Below, one piece after another: positions 7,442 through 31,066 of a stretch of DNA of 36,574 nucleotides. Source of the stretch: Alphaproteobacteria bacterium (GTDB lineage: Bacteria > Pseudomonadota > Alphaproteobacteria > WRAU01 > Hepatincolaceae). Numbering within the stretch: the stretch's first letter is position 1; every line of letters begins with the position of its first letter. A model generated the notes under the pieces. It was not told the DNA's origin. It saw only the letters and a list, made by a program, of their open reading frames with translations, and ran no database searches. The stretch spans positions 1 through 36,574 of the forward strand of contig CANHGT010000005.1 in NCBI GenBank assembly GCA_947460385.1, written 5' to 3'. Made by a program: the position numbers and the translations under genes.

Positions 7442-9268
7442 ATGAATATACTAAATAAAATTTTTCAAAATCCACAAGATAGTTTATCTATCTTTACCAG
7501 TGAGGAAATTTCATTATTAAATTTTTTTACCAAAGATAATGAAAAATATTATTTGAAAAGTTTTTCAAATAAGCAAGAAGAAAAATTAATTTATTCAAAG
7601 TCTAAATCAGCCCCTGAAGAAATAGTAAGACAATTATTTGTTAATAGATTAATTAACAAATATAAATATCCTAAAGAATTAATAGAAATTGAAGTGTCTG
7701 TAAATTTTGGTCGTGAGACAAAAAGGGCAGATATTATTGTTTATAAAGACGATAAAATTACGCCATATATTCTTATTGAAGTTAAAAGTCCTAAAGAAAA
7801 AAATGATGTTAAACAACTTAAAAGCTATTTAAATGCAGAAGGGGCAGAATTAGGTATTACTATAAATGGGCTTACCCAAGAAATTTTGTATCGTCCATAT
7901 CCTAAAGATTTTTCAGCTTTACCTGATATTCCAGAATATAAACAAGAAGTAGAAGATGTTTTTGAAAAAACATTTAAGTATAGCCAATTAAAAGAACCAA
8001 GACAGTTAAAGCAAATTATTCAAAATTTAGAAGATTTAGTATTAGCCAATTCAGGTTTTGATAGTTTTGATGAAATATTCAAAATTATTTATGCTAAAAT
8101 ATACGATGAAGTACAAGGTATAGAAAAGTCCGACTATGTATTACAATTTAGAGCAAGAAAAAATATTGAAAGTACTAAATTATCTATAGATGCTTTATTT
8201 GAAGAAGCGAAAAAACAATGGAAAGACATATTTGAAGATAGCGATAAAATAAAATTAAAAGATACTCATTTAGCAATAATAGTAGCTAATTTACAAGAAT
8301 GGTCTTTAATGGGTTCCGATTTACAAATTATTGATGATACTTTTGAATATTTAATACCAGATGTTGCCAAAGGTAAAAAAGGGCAGTATTTTACTCCACG
8401 CCATGTTATAGATATGTGTGTAGCTATTATGAATCCTAAAGTTAATGAATATATTATAGATACCGCATGTGGCTCGGGTGGTTTTTTGATTCACGCCATG
8501 AATTATATAAGGGATGTATCTACTTTAAATACAGCAGGAGTACAAAATTATGCAGCAAAGCGATTATGGGGCATAGATTTTGATGAAAGAAGTTCAAAAA
8601 TATCAAAAGCTATGATGCTTATAGCAGGTGACGGTAAAAGCCATATATTTAAAGAAAATTCATTAGACCCAGAAGGTTGGGGAAGCAATATTAAGGTACA
8701 TTTTGAAGCTGAAAGGTTAAATGCAGATAAAAGTTATAAATTTTTTAATTTTGATGTGCTACTGGCAAATCCACCATTTGCAGGAGAAGTAAATGAACAA
8801 CATGTATTAAAACAGTATAATAATGTGGTTAAAGAGAAACAAACAAAAATATCAAGGCATTTACTATTTATAGAAAGAAATCTTAACTTTGTAAAAAGCG
8901 GTGGGCGTTTAGCTGTTGTTCTACCTCAGGGAGTTTTTAATAATACATCTGAGAAACATATTAGAGACTTTATGGCAAACAAAGCTAGAATACTTGGGGT
9001 TGTGGGCTTAGAGGTAAATACTTTTAAACCCCATACTGGAACTAAAACATCGGTTATATTTTTACAAAAATGGCATGAAACACTATGTCCGCAAGTAAAT
9101 GATTATAATATCTTTTTTGCAACAAGTGAAGTAAGTGGTAAAAACAATTCAGGTGAGTATATTAAAAAGATAGTTGATGGCAAAGAAATATTACAACATG
9201 ATTTATTTGATATTGTAGAAGCCTTTAAACAATTTGCTTTGAATGAAAACTTAAGTTTTTGGAAATAG
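7442..9268 (+). CDS. Restriction nuclease-DNA methyltransferase fusion (HsdR_N + HsdM)
   Basis: 608 residues. The N-terminal part (about 50-165) is an HsdR N-terminal-type PD-(D/E)xK nuclease domain: Asp97 in RADIIV, then Glu113 and Lys115 in IEVKSPK, with Glu60 as a possible helper. A helical linker (about 170-280) leads into an N6-adenine methyltransferase of HsdM type: GQYFTPR (314-320), the SAM-binding DTACGSGGFL (340-349) and the catalytic NPPF (443-446). One polypeptide therefore carries both cutting and methylating activity. No HsdR helicase gene is next to it. The next gene, 4 bases on, is the specificity subunit. The layout recalls type IIB enzymes (BcgI A plus B subunits). All key residues look intact, so I expect an active enzyme. 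AGGG precedes the ATG. Confidence 0.88.
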   Translation: MNILNKIFQNPQDSLSIFTSEEISLLNFFTKDNEKYYLKSFSNKQEEKLIYSKSKSAPEEIVRQLFVNRLINKYKYPKELIEIEVSVNFGRETKRADIIVYKDDKITPYILIEVKSPKEKNDVKQLKSYLNAEGAELGITINGLTQEILYRPYPKDFSALPDIPEYKQEVEDVFEKTFKYSQLKEPRQLKQIIQNLEDLVLANSGFDSFDEIFKIIYAKIYDEVQGIEKSDYVLQFRARKNIESTKLSIDALFEEAKKQWKDIFEDSDKIKLKDTHLAIIVANLQEWSLMGSDLQIIDDTFEYLIPDVAKGKKGQYFTPRHVIDMCVAIMNPKVNEYIIDTACGSGGFLIHAMNYIRDVSTLNTAGVQNYAAKRLWGIDFDERSSKISKAMMLIAGDGKSHIFKENSLDPEGWGSNIKVHFEAERLNADKSYKFFNFDVLLANPPFAGEVNEQHVLKQYNNVVKEKQTKISRHLLFIERNLNFVKSGGRLAVVLPQGVFNNTSEKHIRDFMANKARILGVVGLEVNTFKPHTGTKTSVIFLQKWHETLCPQVNDYNIFFATSEVSGKNNSGEYIKKIVDGKEILQHDLFDIVEAFKQFALNENLSFWK

Positions 9269-9272
9269 TAAA

Positions 9273-10688
9273 ATGCAGTATTCTATTGTAAAATTTAGTG
9301 AAGTGAAAAAACTAACCGATTCGCTCCGCTTAGATGCTGAATTTTTTCAAGATTTATCTATTATTAATTTTATGAATAATTTTGATTTATATTCAACAAG
9401 TGAATTATGTTTTATTACAGATGGTGAGCATGGTAGTCCAGACTGGGATCAAAATACAAACATTAAATATATAGTAGCAGAAAATATCAAACCTAATTAT
9501 ATTCTTGAAAATAATTTTAAAACTATATCTTTATTGCAACATACAAGGAATACACGTTCTATAATACAAGAAGATGATGTTTTAATTTATTCAGTTGGTG
9601 GAAGAGGATATGTTTCCAAGGCAGAAAAGCATTTATTCCCATGTAATATTCCTAGATCAGTAGCTATTTTAAGATTATTAAACAAAAATATAATGTTACC
9701 AGAATATTTATCATTATTTTTAAATTCAAAGTATGGTGCTTTTCAAATTCAAAGGTTACAAGCTGGTAATGTACAGCCTATGTTATCAATAGAAAATATA
9801 AAAAAAATTAACCTTATTTCTCTTACTATGGAGATGCAATCATTATTATCTTCATTGTATAATACCTCTTATATTTTAAGGCAAAAAGCCAAAGAGCAGT
9901 ATAAAAAAGCAGAAGATATTTTATTAGAAGAATTAGGTTTTAAAGACTATAAATTAAAGCATCAACTTTCTTATATAAAAACTTTTGCAGAGGTACAAAA
10001 GGAAGAACGCCTAGATGCTGAGTACTATCAACCTAAATATGAAGATATTATTCTTAAAATTAAAAACAAAAATTATGAATTATTATCAAATATAGTAAAT
10101 ATTAATAAGTGTATTGAACCAGGAAGTGAGGAATACCAAGAATATGGTATACCATTTATACGTGTTAGTAATTTATCAAAATTTGGATTAAGCAAGAATA
10201 ATCAAAAATATTTATCTGAATCATTTTATAATCAACATATATCACACCAACCACAGAAGGGAGATATTTTACTATCAAAAGATGGTACAGTGTGTGTTGC
10301 ATATTTTTTAGACTCTCAGCCAAATAAAATAATATGTTCAGGAGGTATTTTAAGGTTATCTATCAAACATGATAATGTACTACCAGAATATTTAACATTA
10401 TTGCTTAATTCCATTATTGTTTCTTCTCAGGCTGAAAGAGATTCAGGAGGAGCATTAATATCTCATTGGTTAATAGGTTCAATAGAAAATACTTTGATAC
10501 CTATAATTGATCTTGAACATCAAAAATCTATTTGCTCATTAATTAATTCTTGTACAAATGACAGAAATAAATCAAAACAACTCTTAGAAATAGCTACTAA
10601 AGCGGTAGAGATGGCAATTGAACAAAATGAAGAGATTGCTACAGAGTGGATTCATAGTCAACTGCAATCAATAGATGTAAAAATTTAA
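9273..10688 (+). CDS. hsdS: Restriction-modification specificity subunit (HsdS-like)
   Basis: 471 residues with the internal duplication typical of S subunits. Two target-recognition domains (about 30-190 and 260-425) are each preceded by a related sequence, SLRLDAEFFQ near residue 17 and ERLDAEYYQP near residue 247. Each is followed by a helical spacer (for example QKAKEQYKKAEDILLEELG at about 206-224). The two domains would read the two halves of a bipartite DNA site. It starts 4 bases after the nuclease-methyltransferase gene, so the two form an operon. The frame is intact. The recognition sequence cannot be predicted from the protein alone. Confidence 0.9.
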   Translation: MQYSIVKFSEVKKLTDSLRLDAEFFQDLSIINFMNNFDLYSTSELCFITDGEHGSPDWDQNTNIKYIVAENIKPNYILENNFKTISLLQHTRNTRSIIQEDDVLIYSVGGRGYVSKAEKHLFPCNIPRSVAILRLLNKNIMLPEYLSLFLNSKYGAFQIQRLQAGNVQPMLSIENIKKINLISLTMEMQSLLSSLYNTSYILRQKAKEQYKKAEDILLEELGFKDYKLKHQLSYIKTFAEVQKEERLDAEYYQPKYEDIILKIKNKNYELLSNIVNINKCIEPGSEEYQEYGIPFIRVSNLSKFGLSKNNQKYLSESFYNQHISHQPQKGDILLSKDGTVCVAYFLDSQPNKIICSGGILRLSIKHDNVLPEYLTLLLNSIIVSSQAERDSGGALISHWLIGSIENTLIPIIDLEHQKSICSLINSCTNDRNKSKQLLEIATKAVEMAIEQNEEIATEWIHSQLQSIDVKI

Positions 10689-13466: not shown

Positions 13467-14003
13467 TTATTTATTTTCTAAATTTTCCTCTGTTTCACCA
13501 GAATCTTTTGGATTGTTTAACGCTTTTTTATATTTATCCATTTGCACTTCTGCTTCTTCAGAACTTCTAGCAATATTTACTAAAACATTTGTTTCTACTT
13601 CTGAATGAATCATTAATTTAATATTAAATACACCTAAGGTTTTCAAAGGTTCTGGAATAGCAACTTGATTTTTATCTAACACAAAAGATTTTACTTGAAA
13701 AGCATCTGCAATATCTTTAGGTTTTACAGAGCCATATAAATAGCCTGATTCACCAGCATTTCTAATAATTATTACACTTTGCCCTGCAATTTTTGCAGAA
13801 ACAACTTCAGCTTCTTTTTTACTGTTGATATGTTCTAGTTCTAAAGTAGCTTTTCTGCTTTCAAAGATAGTTTTATTTTCTTCTGTAGCTTTCAAGCATT
13901 TTTTATTAGGTATTAAATAGTTTTTTGCATAACCATTTTTTACATTTACTATATCACCAATAAAACCTAGTTTTTCAACTCTTTGTAATAAAATAACTTC
14001 CAT
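13467..14003 (-). CDS. rplI: 50S ribosomal protein L9
   Basis: 178 residues from the chosen start. L9 binds 23S rRNA near the L1 stalk and helps keep the reading frame. The N-terminal domain is unmistakable: MEVILLQRVEKLG, then VKNGYAKNYLIPNKKCLKAT. A long connecting helix (about 45-75) and the C-terminal domain follow, with a further acidic tail ending in ETEENLENK. Start: the ATG at 14003 has GAGGA five bases upstream and gives the standard N-terminus; the longer frame from 14021 overlaps the upstream stop and is rejected. It lies 17 bases after the DUF2232 gene. Confidence 0.95.
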   Translation of the reverse strand: MEVILLQRVEKLGFIGDIVNVKNGYAKNYLIPNKKCLKATEENKTIFESRKATLELEHINSKKEAEVVSAKIAGQSVIIIRNAGESGYLYGSVKPKDIADAFQVKSFVLDKNQVAIPEPLKTLGVFNIKLMIHSEVETNVLVNIARSSEEAEVQMDKYKKALNNPKDSGETEENLENK

Positions 14004-14020: not shown

Positions 14021-14965
14021 TTAATTTTTTTTATATTTTCTAAAGACGTGTAAGTTTTCTAAAAAGCCAATGAAACTTATTAATAACATGATTTCTACAA
14101 AGGCAAAAATAAAAAATGCAATAAAAAGCAATTCCAATAGAATACTTTTTCTACTTTTAACTAATTTCCATGCTATGGAGTAACCAGGATAAAAATAGCA
14201 AATCCACAAAACTAACAAAATATTATACAGAGTATAGCATAAATTTTCTGCATCTACAAATATTTTATTTATAAGCAGTGTAGAAACTGCAATTATAATA
14301 AAAACATAGGTGTACCATGAAGGTAAAAAAATATTATTATGATTGTTTGTATATGATATTTCTGTTTTACTCATAACTAATAATGCTAATTTATAATTCA
14401 TATTAATCCATGCAATCCATAAAAATGAAGAGATAGCAGGAATTATAAATGATATAATTTTTATTGTATTTGTGGTATCCATTCCTTCAAATATATCTTT
14501 ATTACTACTAATGATTGATATAGATAAAAAGGTAAACAAGTCGTACAGATAACTATAAATAGACGAATCAATTCTATAGGAAAAGTATGTGAGCAATAAA
14601 GTATTGATGAAAATAATATAGAAAATTATAAAAATTATGGGTGAGCAATATTTATTAATGTTTTGATTTCTAGTAATTAACACCAGTAAACTACTAGGTA
14701 TAATGAATACTATTAATAAAACAGCGGTAGTAATAGGATTAATAAAATATATTGTAGAAGCAAATATTATTGGTAGTAAAACTGCTGTGTACCCTAGCCA
14801 TAACCCAGAAAGAATTAATGGAAAAAATAAAACTAATAATAATATTAAGGCAGTAACACCCACTTCTGAATTTGAATTATAAAACAAAAAGAATATGCCA
14901 AAAAACAATGAGCTTGTAAATATACTATAAGGTAGTTTTTTAAAAATGTCTTTAATGTTTTCCAT
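14021..14965 (-). CDS. DUF2232-type multi-pass membrane protein
   Basis: 314 residues, almost entirely hydrophobic, with about eight predicted membrane helices; the C-terminus is short and basic (HVFRKYKKN). A membrane protein of the DUF2232/YybS type lies between rpsR and rplI in many alphaproteobacteria, and the position here is exactly that. The family assignment rests on position and on the overall pattern rather than on a clear motif. Biochemical function unknown. Start: ATG at 14965; a longer frame from a GTG at 14989 starts inside the terminator hairpin (14979-15018) and is rejected. No strong Shine-Dalgarno is seen. Confidence 0.75.
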   Translation of the reverse strand: MENIKDIFKKLPYSIFTSSLFFGIFFLFYNSNSEVGVTALILLLVLFFPLILSGLWLGYTAVLLPIIFASTIYFINPITTAVLLIVFIIPSSLLVLITRNQNINKYCSPIIFIIFYIIFINTLLLTYFSYRIDSSIYSYLYDLFTFLSISIISSNKDIFEGMDTTNTIKIISFIIPAISSFLWIAWINMNYKLALLVMSKTEISYTNNHNNIFLPSWYTYVFIIIAVSTLLINKIFVDAENLCYTLYNILLVLWICYFYPGYSIAWKLVKSRKSILLELLFIAFFIFAFVEIMLLISFIGFLENLHVFRKYKKN

Positions 14966-14978
14966 GCTTTTTTTATTT

Positions 14979-15018
14979 AAAAAAAGCACACGCTATATTT
15001 GTAGAACAACGTGTGCTT
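14979..15018 (-). terminator. Intrinsic terminator between rpsF-rpsR and the DUF2232 gene
   Basis: A perfect 9-bp stem, AAGCACACG (14984-14992) with CGTGTGCTT (15010-15018), loop 17 bases. On the minus strand it is followed by seven T (complement of the A-run 14979-14985). It lies 12 bases after the S6-S18 stop and before the DUF2232 gene, so it should end or attenuate the ribosomal transcript inside what is otherwise an operon. Confidence 0.8.
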
Positions 15019-15029
15019 AATTTATAAGT

Positions 15030-15572
15030 TTATTTATATAATGGAGAAATAAGAGCTAAGAATCTTAATCTTTTGATTGCTTGTGCTATTTTTCTTTGAC
15101 CTTGTGAGTCTGACATTGTTAATCTTCTAGGTAAGATTTTTCCTCGTTCTGTGATAAATCTTTTAATATATTCAACATTTTTGTAGTTAACATTTTTTTC
15201 AATAAGAACATCATCATCATTTTGCGAATCTGAATGGTCGTTATGACCTTTAATTTCATTTAGCACAGGAGAAGGATTGTTGTCTAACTCATCTACTTTA
15301 ATCGTTAAGAATCTTAAAATATTTTCATTTACAGACATACTTTGTTGAACTTTCTTTAAAGTTTCCGGAGAAACATCTAAGTTCATTAGTGTGAAATAAG
15401 CTTTCTTATTTTTTTTCACCTTATATGCAAGATTCATTAAATCCCACTGTTCTATTTTGGTAACTTTACCTTGATCTGCTTCTATTATATCTTTAATTTT
15501 TTTGCTTATGTCTTCTACCTGAGATGCAGATAGGTCTTGCCTCATTAAAAAAACGTGTTCATAAAAAGCCAT
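15030..15572 (-). CDS. rpsF-rpsR: Fused ribosomal proteins S6 and S18
   Basis: 180 residues in one unbroken frame. Residues 1-98 are S6: MAFYEHVFLMRQDLS, the strand with WDLMNLAYKVKKNKKAYF, and ENILRFLTIKVDE. Residues about 99-127 are an acidic, Asp/Asn/His-rich linker. Residues about 128-180 are the conserved body of S18: YKNVEYIKRFITERGKILPRR followed by QRKIAQAIKRLRFLALI. Normally rpsF and rpsR are separate neighbouring genes whose products bind 16S rRNA as a heterodimer in the 30S platform. The S18 part lacks its usual basic N-terminal extension, and its TGT-type loop is altered (TMSDSQGQR). Start: the ATG at 15572 has GGGGAG at ideal spacing; the longer frame from 15599 is rejected. No stop or frameshift separates the halves. 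Confidence 0.9.
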   Translation of the reverse strand: MAFYEHVFLMRQDLSASQVEDISKKIKDIIEADQGKVTKIEQWDLMNLAYKVKKNKKAYFTLMNLDVSPETLKKVQQSMSVNENILRFLTIKVDELDNNPSPVLNEIKGHNDHSDSQNDDDVLIEKNVNYKNVEYIKRFITERGKILPRRLTMSDSQGQRKIAQAIKRLRFLALISPLYK

Positions 15573-15671
15573 ATTAGTTCTCCCCATTGGATTGTTCAAC
15601 TCTTAAAAACAAAGAGTATAGTATAATAATTGTAAAATGATACTAGGGAATGTTTTCCTGTAATATAAAAC

Positions 15672-15699
15672 ATTGTAACATAAATAAAACAGTTTGCAA
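15672..15699 (-). promoter_or_regulatory. Possible promoter of rpsF-rpsR
   Basis: Reading the minus strand, TTGCAA (15694-15699) and TACAAT (15672-15677) are 16 bases apart, about 100 bases before the S6 start. The -10 matches 5 of 6 consensus bases, the -35 only 4 of 6. In DNA this AT-rich such pairs arise easily, so confidence is low. Confidence 0.35.
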
Positions 15700-30253: not shown

Positions 30254-31066
30254 ATGTTATTAAATAAGAAAAATATAACTTTAAATGCTAAAATAGAAGA
30301 CTTAACGGCTAAATTAGAAGGTGTAACTACCGAATTGTGTAGTTCTAAAGCTCAATTAAGCACAGTAAGTGTGGAATTAGCACATTTACAGCAAAAAGTA
30401 CAAAAAACAATAGAAGATCAAATAGAATCCATGGTTGGAATAGATAAATGGTTCAATACCGATAATCAACATAAAAACCAAGAAATAGTAAAAACAGGAG
30501 GGGCAAACTTTAGAAAAACATGGTTGTTAATGGATTCTAATAATATAGTTTATATAGATGATTATCCACTATTGTTTGAAGTGTTACAGGCAGAAGATAG
30601 GGGCGATGGCACTTTTGCAATGCCTGATTTTCATGATGGCACTTTAAGGCATATAAGAGTTGGCGACACACGGGAACTAGGTACTTTTGAAATGGATGCA
30701 ATGCAAAGCCATGTGCATAGTAATACCCATAGTCATACAGAAAATGCACATAATCACCCTATTAATGATATAAAGGGTGGGGTTGGTTCATGGCAAGCTA
30801 GTTTTATAAATCATAATACAGGAGCATTTAAAGATGAAGAAGGTGCATCGCTTAAGTTTGGAGGCTCGGGTAACTCTGAATGGTCAAGTTGGGCGTCTTT
30901 TTCTTCACACAGGGCAGGGGTTACGGCTACCAATAATACTACTGCTACAATCAACAATACAACTATTACAACAGATAGCGGAACAGGCAAGCAAGCCCAA
31001 GAAACCCGTATGAAAAACACAAGCGGGCAATGGTATATTTTAGCTAAAGTTTCCTATACTGCTTAA
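30254..31066 (+). CDS. Phage tail-collar/tail-fibre-like protein
   Basis: 270 residues. The N-terminal 60 residues form a probable coiled coil (LNAKIEDLTAKLEGVTTEL). A phage tail-collar-like segment follows at about 107-150 (TFAMPDFHDGTLRHIRVGD, RELGTFEMDAM). Next is a His-rich stretch (163-178) with HVH, HSH and HNH, reminiscent of the metal-binding HxH motifs in phage fibre tips. A Ser/Thr/Asn/Gly-rich region leads to a C-terminus ETRMKNTSGQWYILAKV, close to the usual ETRPKN ending of phage fibres. No other phage gene is nearby, so this is a lone gene, perhaps domesticated. AGAGGTG before the ATG and a strong terminator behind it suggest it is expressed. Confidence 0.72.
   Translation: MLLNKKNITLNAKIEDLTAKLEGVTTELCSSKAQLSTVSVELAHLQQKVQKTIEDQIESMVGIDKWFNTDNQHKNQEIVKTGGANFRKTWLLMDSNNIVYIDDYPLLFEVLQAEDRGDGTFAMPDFHDGTLRHIRVGDTRELGTFEMDAMQSHVHSNTHSHTENAHNHPINDIKGGVGSWQASFINHNTGAFKDEEGASLKFGGSGNSEWSSWASFSSHRAGVTATNNTTATINNTTITTDSGTGKQAQETRMKNTSGQWYILAKVSYTA

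Follow-up and report, generated by a model that had tools for sequence, protein, structure and literature searches.

A single-frame fusion of ribosomal proteins S6 and S18 in two orders of Alphaproteobacteria

Introduction

Ribosomal proteins S6 (bS6) and S18 (bS18) are a textbook example of ribosome assembly that starts from a heterodimer. In other Alphaproteobacteria, they are encoded by two separate genes, rpsF and rpsR, with a stop codon between them. The two proteins pair before they join the rRNA-S15 complex and, in Escherichia coli, the S6:S18 complex represses rpsF via a structured leader that directly precedes the gene (PMC4647458).

Natural fusions that involve ribosomal proteins have been described. 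In the reduced genome of the host-associated Sulcia muelleri DMIN, L10 and L12 are fused, and this fusion is backed by several sequencing methods (PMC2859065). In eukaryotes, eS31 and eL40 are each made as a fusion with ubiquitin (PMC6721733). A description of an S6-S18 fusion was not found in the literature searched, where the L10-L12 fusion of Sulcia DMIN came nearest; a mention in primary endosymbiont papers is possible. Here we analyze an alphaproteobacterial locus in which S6 and S18 share one open frame. Domains, gene order, and neighborhood (rplI and dnaB downstream, fabD divergent) are the same as for the separate genes of other Alphaproteobacteria, and a leader that appears to be structured lies directly before the S6 start, as in the known rpsF system.

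Results

One open frame is the only source of S6 and S18 found in the genome

The locus lies in a window (the whole stretch of DNA analyzed, 36,574 nucleotides) with a GC content of 27-30%. The corresponding genome, G000, is a draft of 1.09 Mb in 66 contigs that is 92.5% complete. A preliminary description of the window had proposed an in-frame S6-S18 fusion without an intervening stop, and our analysis confirms this: the frame running from 15572 to 15030 has no internal stop and encodes both proteins. The frame was correctly recognized there without its strand, which is the minus strand. The gene is organized as follows.

15030..15572, minus strand: rpsF-rpsR fusion gene, 180 aa, ATG at 15572 and stop at 15030-15032
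15297..15563, minus strand: S6 (bS6) domain, residues 4-92, PF01250 and TIGR00166
15198..15296, minus strand: acidic linker, about residues 93-125, judged from a net charge of -8 over about residues 94-126, low pLDDT, and the S6 tails of relatives
15048..15197, minus strand: S18 (bS18) core, residues 126-175, PF01084 and TIGR00165

Matches to Pfam and NCBIfam profiles were judged against the curated cut-offs, which all four exceed. PF01250 (Ribosomal_S6) matched residues 4-92 of the 180-aa protein (E = 2.2e-26, 92.3 bits, cut-off 27; profile positions 2-90 of 90) and PF01084 (Ribosomal_S18) matched residues 126-175 (E = 1.9e-18, 66.7 bits, cut-off 21; profile positions 3-52 of 52). The NCBIfam equivalogs TIGR00166 and TIGR00165 scored 64.9 bits (cut-off 42.9) and 61.6 bits (cut-off 38.75), respectively. 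The profile check that had been recommended for both families was thus positive within one protein, for which the domain limits first given were S6 1-98 and S18 128-180. A Pfam profile search of the whole genome returned one S6 match (E = 1.0e-26) and one S18 match (E = 5.5e-19), both inside the fusion frame. Neither a second S6 nor a second S18, including the separate rpsR whose search had been advised, was found by this search in the 92.5% complete genome, so that the fusion gene alone was identified as encoding S6 and S18 there. Two nearly full-length family matches in one frame, together with a relative that has the same arrangement (see below), exclude chance.

In a search of PDB sequences, S6 chains matched at most residues 1-115 and S18 chains matched residues 126-176, and none of the 60 matches listed spanned both halves. 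The AlphaFold model of the fusion (pLDDT 87.8, pTM 0.81) is confident for the S6 fold and the S18 core and weak only around the linker, where pLDDT is about 52-69 in blocks from residue 101 to 130. The S6 half adopts the ferredoxin-like order E-H-E-E-H-E and agrees with S6 chains of known structure (best E = 1.6e-9, TMt 0.93). The earlier view that such a fusion is structurally sensible is supported. Very probably, the gene encodes a natural S6-S18 fusion, that is, a covalently tethered S6:S18 heterodimer.

Downstream, the fusion gene is followed by two genes on the same strand.

14021..14989, minus strand: membrane protein between the fusion gene and rplI, with this neighborhood kept in each of the order's four genomes
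13467..14003, minus strand: rplI (L9), identity from sequence

The membrane protein has no Pfam match. The gene rplI is the usual downstream partner of rpsF-rpsR. Elsewhere in the window, at 7442-10688, HsdM-like and HsdS-like type I restriction-modification genes adjoin, as read from the sequence, and no HsdR-like frame of at least 100 aa lies between this pair and the next gene; the pair is possibly an orphan methyltransferase. A frame at 30254-31066 contains a histidine-rich stretch (MQSHVHSNTHSHTENAHNH) and resembles phage tail-collar proteins.

A second genus of the family carries the same fusion

The order of G000 is represented in our collection by four genomes, G000 to G003. The related genomes, in which a search for the fusion had been proposed, include one with the same S6-S18 fusion: G002 (WRAU01000002.1, termite-gut MAG Lab288P1bin49), which belongs to another genus of the same family. 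Lab288 denotes the termite Labiotermes labralis (PMC7024585). The G002 protein (frame 212) has 186 aa and 49% identity to that of G000, and the profile search found one match per family in this genome as well. In G001 and G003, rpsF and rpsR are separate.

The best tree of the order, calculated from 5596 alignment columns, is (((G000,G003),G002),G001) and splits the two fused genomes. The tree (((G000,G002),G003),G001) is not rejected by the AU test, with p values of 0.15 under LG+F+R4 and 0.31 under C20. Because a tree uniting G000 and G002 is not rejected, these sequences are compatible with a single fusion in the order, with two, or with one that was split again later. The viral contigs searched contained no relative.

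The linker resembles an S6 tail followed by an S18 start

As had been noted before, the linker is acidic. It is poorly conserved between G000 and G002, whereas the domains are conserved. Its start (DELDNNPSPVL in G000) is similar to the S6 tails of the unfused relatives G003 (DILDNTPSIMM) and G001 (DSLNDSPTPMM), and its end is similar to an S18 start (NVNYKN, NIDYKD, VFDYKD). This succession of S6 tail and S18 start is as expected if a stop and a start were lost between neighboring genes. Probably, rpsF and rpsR lay next to each other and were fused when S6 lost its stop codon and S18 its start codon, and the acidic S6 tail and a remnant of the S18 N-terminus would have been left as a flexible linker. 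In many Proteobacteria (G641, G572, G822, G861, and others), the rpsF and rpsR matches share a reading frame and are separated by just one stop codon. Since the genes often share a frame and are one stop apart, a fusion is only a few mutations away.

Loss of the basic S18 N-terminus is not tied to the fusion

Alphaproteobacterial S18 typically has a basic N-terminal extension with a CPF motif, a usual and not a defining feature. The preliminary description interpreted the missing extension as an adaptation to tethering. We found that the basic/CPF N-terminus is missing in the fused G000 and G002 and equally in the free S18 of the unfused G001 (MEKDSVTAKTETTTAKDKKEVIKGKVFDYKDVETL...) and G003 (MTTENTNTKEKKNFSQFANIDYKDIEFL...), which argues against this interpretation. 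The free S18 of G033, a member of another family, likewise lacks the basic N-terminus. Most simply, these sequences suggest that the loss is older than the fusion. The same adaptive role had been suggested for the altered loop TMSDSQGQR and is not supported either, because this sequence is peculiar to G000 and differs in the fused G002 (TMATAQQQR); the loops of G001 and G003 read TLATAKEQR and TTATAKEQR, respectively.

A candidate rpsF-type leader precedes the fusion gene

Upstream of the ATG, we annotated three elements.

15580..15585, minus strand: Shine-Dalgarno sequence GGGGAG, 7 nt before the ATG and largely within leader helix P1
15573..15649, minus strand: structured leader from alignment and folds, with P1 UCCCUA/UGGGGA, P2 AGUAU/AUACU, and P3 ACUC../..GAGU
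15672..15699, minus strand: possible promoter TTGCAA-N16-TACAAT, its -10 element preceded by TG, 9 of 12 in a consensus scan in which the number of such sites is near chance

The preliminary description had called the Shine-Dalgarno sequence strong. Helix P1, which covers it, pairs UCCCUA with UGGGGA or UAGGGA and has four pairs in G002. P2 differs in sequence in each of the four genomes while its pairing is always kept, and P3 is formed by ACUC/GAGU or, in G002, by ACUU/AAGU. All three helices are kept in the four genomes of the order, fused and unfused, a comparison of four sequences only. Compared with shuffled sequences, the folds have z-scores from -0.35 to -2.9 and are weak in two of the four genomes; the window copy, at -0.35, is no more stable than its shuffled versions. 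No Rfam family matched the leader at E<=5, and by eye no comparable leader is evident in the second order described below. Since the three helices remain paired across fused and unfused members, these alignments support an rpsF-type leader as a candidate for S6:S18 binding.

Fused S6-S18 frames recur in a second order

A fusion profile was run against 289 alphaproteobacterial genomes. Among the better matches, which were those listed, uninterrupted S6-S18 frames occurred only in the order of G000 and in the order of G020. In the latter, at least four of eight genomes are fused, with G020, G150, G244, and G292 passing both Pfam cut-offs; in G291, S6 is above the cut-off and the C-terminal stretch is S18-like. 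In both length and sequence, their linkers are unlike those of G000 and G002. In a draft of this order (G295), we saw an S6 frame of 148 aa at 1477-1923 of contig L150 and no S18 there; this contig contains runs of unknown bases.

The fusions in the order of G020 stand on complete single-contig genomes, and the fused chromosomes measure 627,924, 622,257, 615,988, and 589,967 bp. Published sizes are 628 kb for Ca. Cytomitobacter indipagum, 622.4 kb for C. primus, 616.1 kb for Ca. Ignotibacter abundans, and 590 kb for Ca. Gromoviella agglomerans (PMC11909080). The fused genomes apparently belong to these reduced bacteria, Ca. Cytomitobacter, Ignotibacter, and Gromoviella, that live inside protists. 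The two orders are distant and the class contains many unfused families, so that the fusion apparently arose independently in each of them.

No further uninterrupted fusion was found among the strong matches in 399 genomes of the phylum or in 369 genomes of another proteobacterial class, both searched with strict score limits. As only the better matches were listed or strict score limits applied, divergent fusions could escape these surveys. Single matches that span S6 and S18 with an internal TAA, TAG, or TGA (e.g., G199, G172, G092, G099, G641, and G822) were rejected as ordinary separate genes that share a frame, four after reading their sequences and the others from stop counts.

Alternative explanations for the joined frame

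An error of assembly or base calling could have joined two genes, or the frame could be a decayed gene whose intact counterparts lie elsewhere, and the draft state of the 92.5% complete genome with its 66 contigs would permit such an error. However, G002 was obtained independently, represents another genus, and carries the same fusion; the two proteins share 49% identity, and their domains are conserved while the linker has diverged. Its occurrence there excludes an assembly error for practical purposes. In addition, a second copy was found neither in G000 nor in G002, and the fusion recurs on the complete single-contig genomes of another order, which leaves this explanation with a negligible probability. 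It is also highly improbable that S18 is additionally made on its own through re-initiation within the frame. The one in-frame GTG, codon 103, does lie inside the linker but has no Shine-Dalgarno sequence upstream (TAGACAACAATCCTTCTCCT); the same is true for the ATG at codon 103 of G002, for which the S6 tails of the unfused relatives have Met codons at the aligned position.

The least improbable alternative is that the fusion is made whole and then cut in the disordered linker, so that the ribosome holds separate S6 and S18 and equal amounts are the sole purpose of the joined gene. The acidic, poorly conserved, and low-confidence linker would fit this scenario, and the ubiquitin-ribosomal protein fusions of eukaryotes provide a precedent for such cutting (PMC6721733). 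On the other hand, neither a protease site nor a conserved linker motif is visible, and the linkers of the two orders differ in both length and sequence. We therefore regard cleavage as unlikely. Our inference is that the protein stays uncleaved, that it sits on the 30S subunit like the normal S6:S18 pair, and that it regulates itself.

Regarding other proteins connected with S6 and S18, the enzyme RimK glutamylates the free S6 C-terminus. The main PF08443 matches in the order of G000 are glutathione-synthetase-like by sequence and not clearly RimK. A loss of bS21, a neighbor of S18, was ruled out, as each of the genomes G000 to G003 has bS21.

Discussion

In the mechanism that we propose, the fusion would replace two subunits on the 30S platform as a tethered S6:S18 heterodimer, with S6 and S18 made in a strict 1:1 ratio. 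Following S15, it would assemble as a single unit on the 16S rRNA central domain, and the upstream leader would probably allow it to control its own translation by feedback. With S6:S18 permanently one polypeptide, these ribosomes would be one polypeptide short of the set that is standard in bacteria. Taken together, we think it probable, with some reserve, that reduced Alphaproteobacteria evolved the S6-S18 fusion on two or more occasions and that it acts there as a permanently tethered, self-regulating assembly subunit of a ribosome with one polypeptide fewer.

A conserved and recurring tether represents an evolutionary experiment on the question whether S6:S18 dissociation is ever needed, and the fusion could serve directly as a construct in tests of assembly and autoregulation. 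Annotation and marker-gene pipelines that expect separate S6 and S18 may misread such genomes, apparently including four published endosymbiont genomes. The general picture of ribosome function is unchanged by the fusion.

Compared with the described systems, the fused gene differs from rpsF and rpsR of other Alphaproteobacteria in having one frame instead of two genes with a stop between them. The leader differs from the known rpsF leader in that it has no Rfam match and that its putative effector, as deduced from the sequence, would be one fused protein. In the ubiquitin fusions of eS31 and eL40, the partner is non-ribosomal and is cleaved off (PMC6721733), whereas both partners of the S6-S18 fusion are ribosomal. 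The L10-L12 fusion of Sulcia DMIN affects the stalk of the large subunit and is missing from the other sharpshooter Sulcia compared (PMC2859065). In contrast, the S6-S18 fusion affects the small subunit, is common to two genera, and is present in a second order. While natural fusions of ribosomal proteins are known, it is unusual that this one is kept across genera and recurs in a second order.
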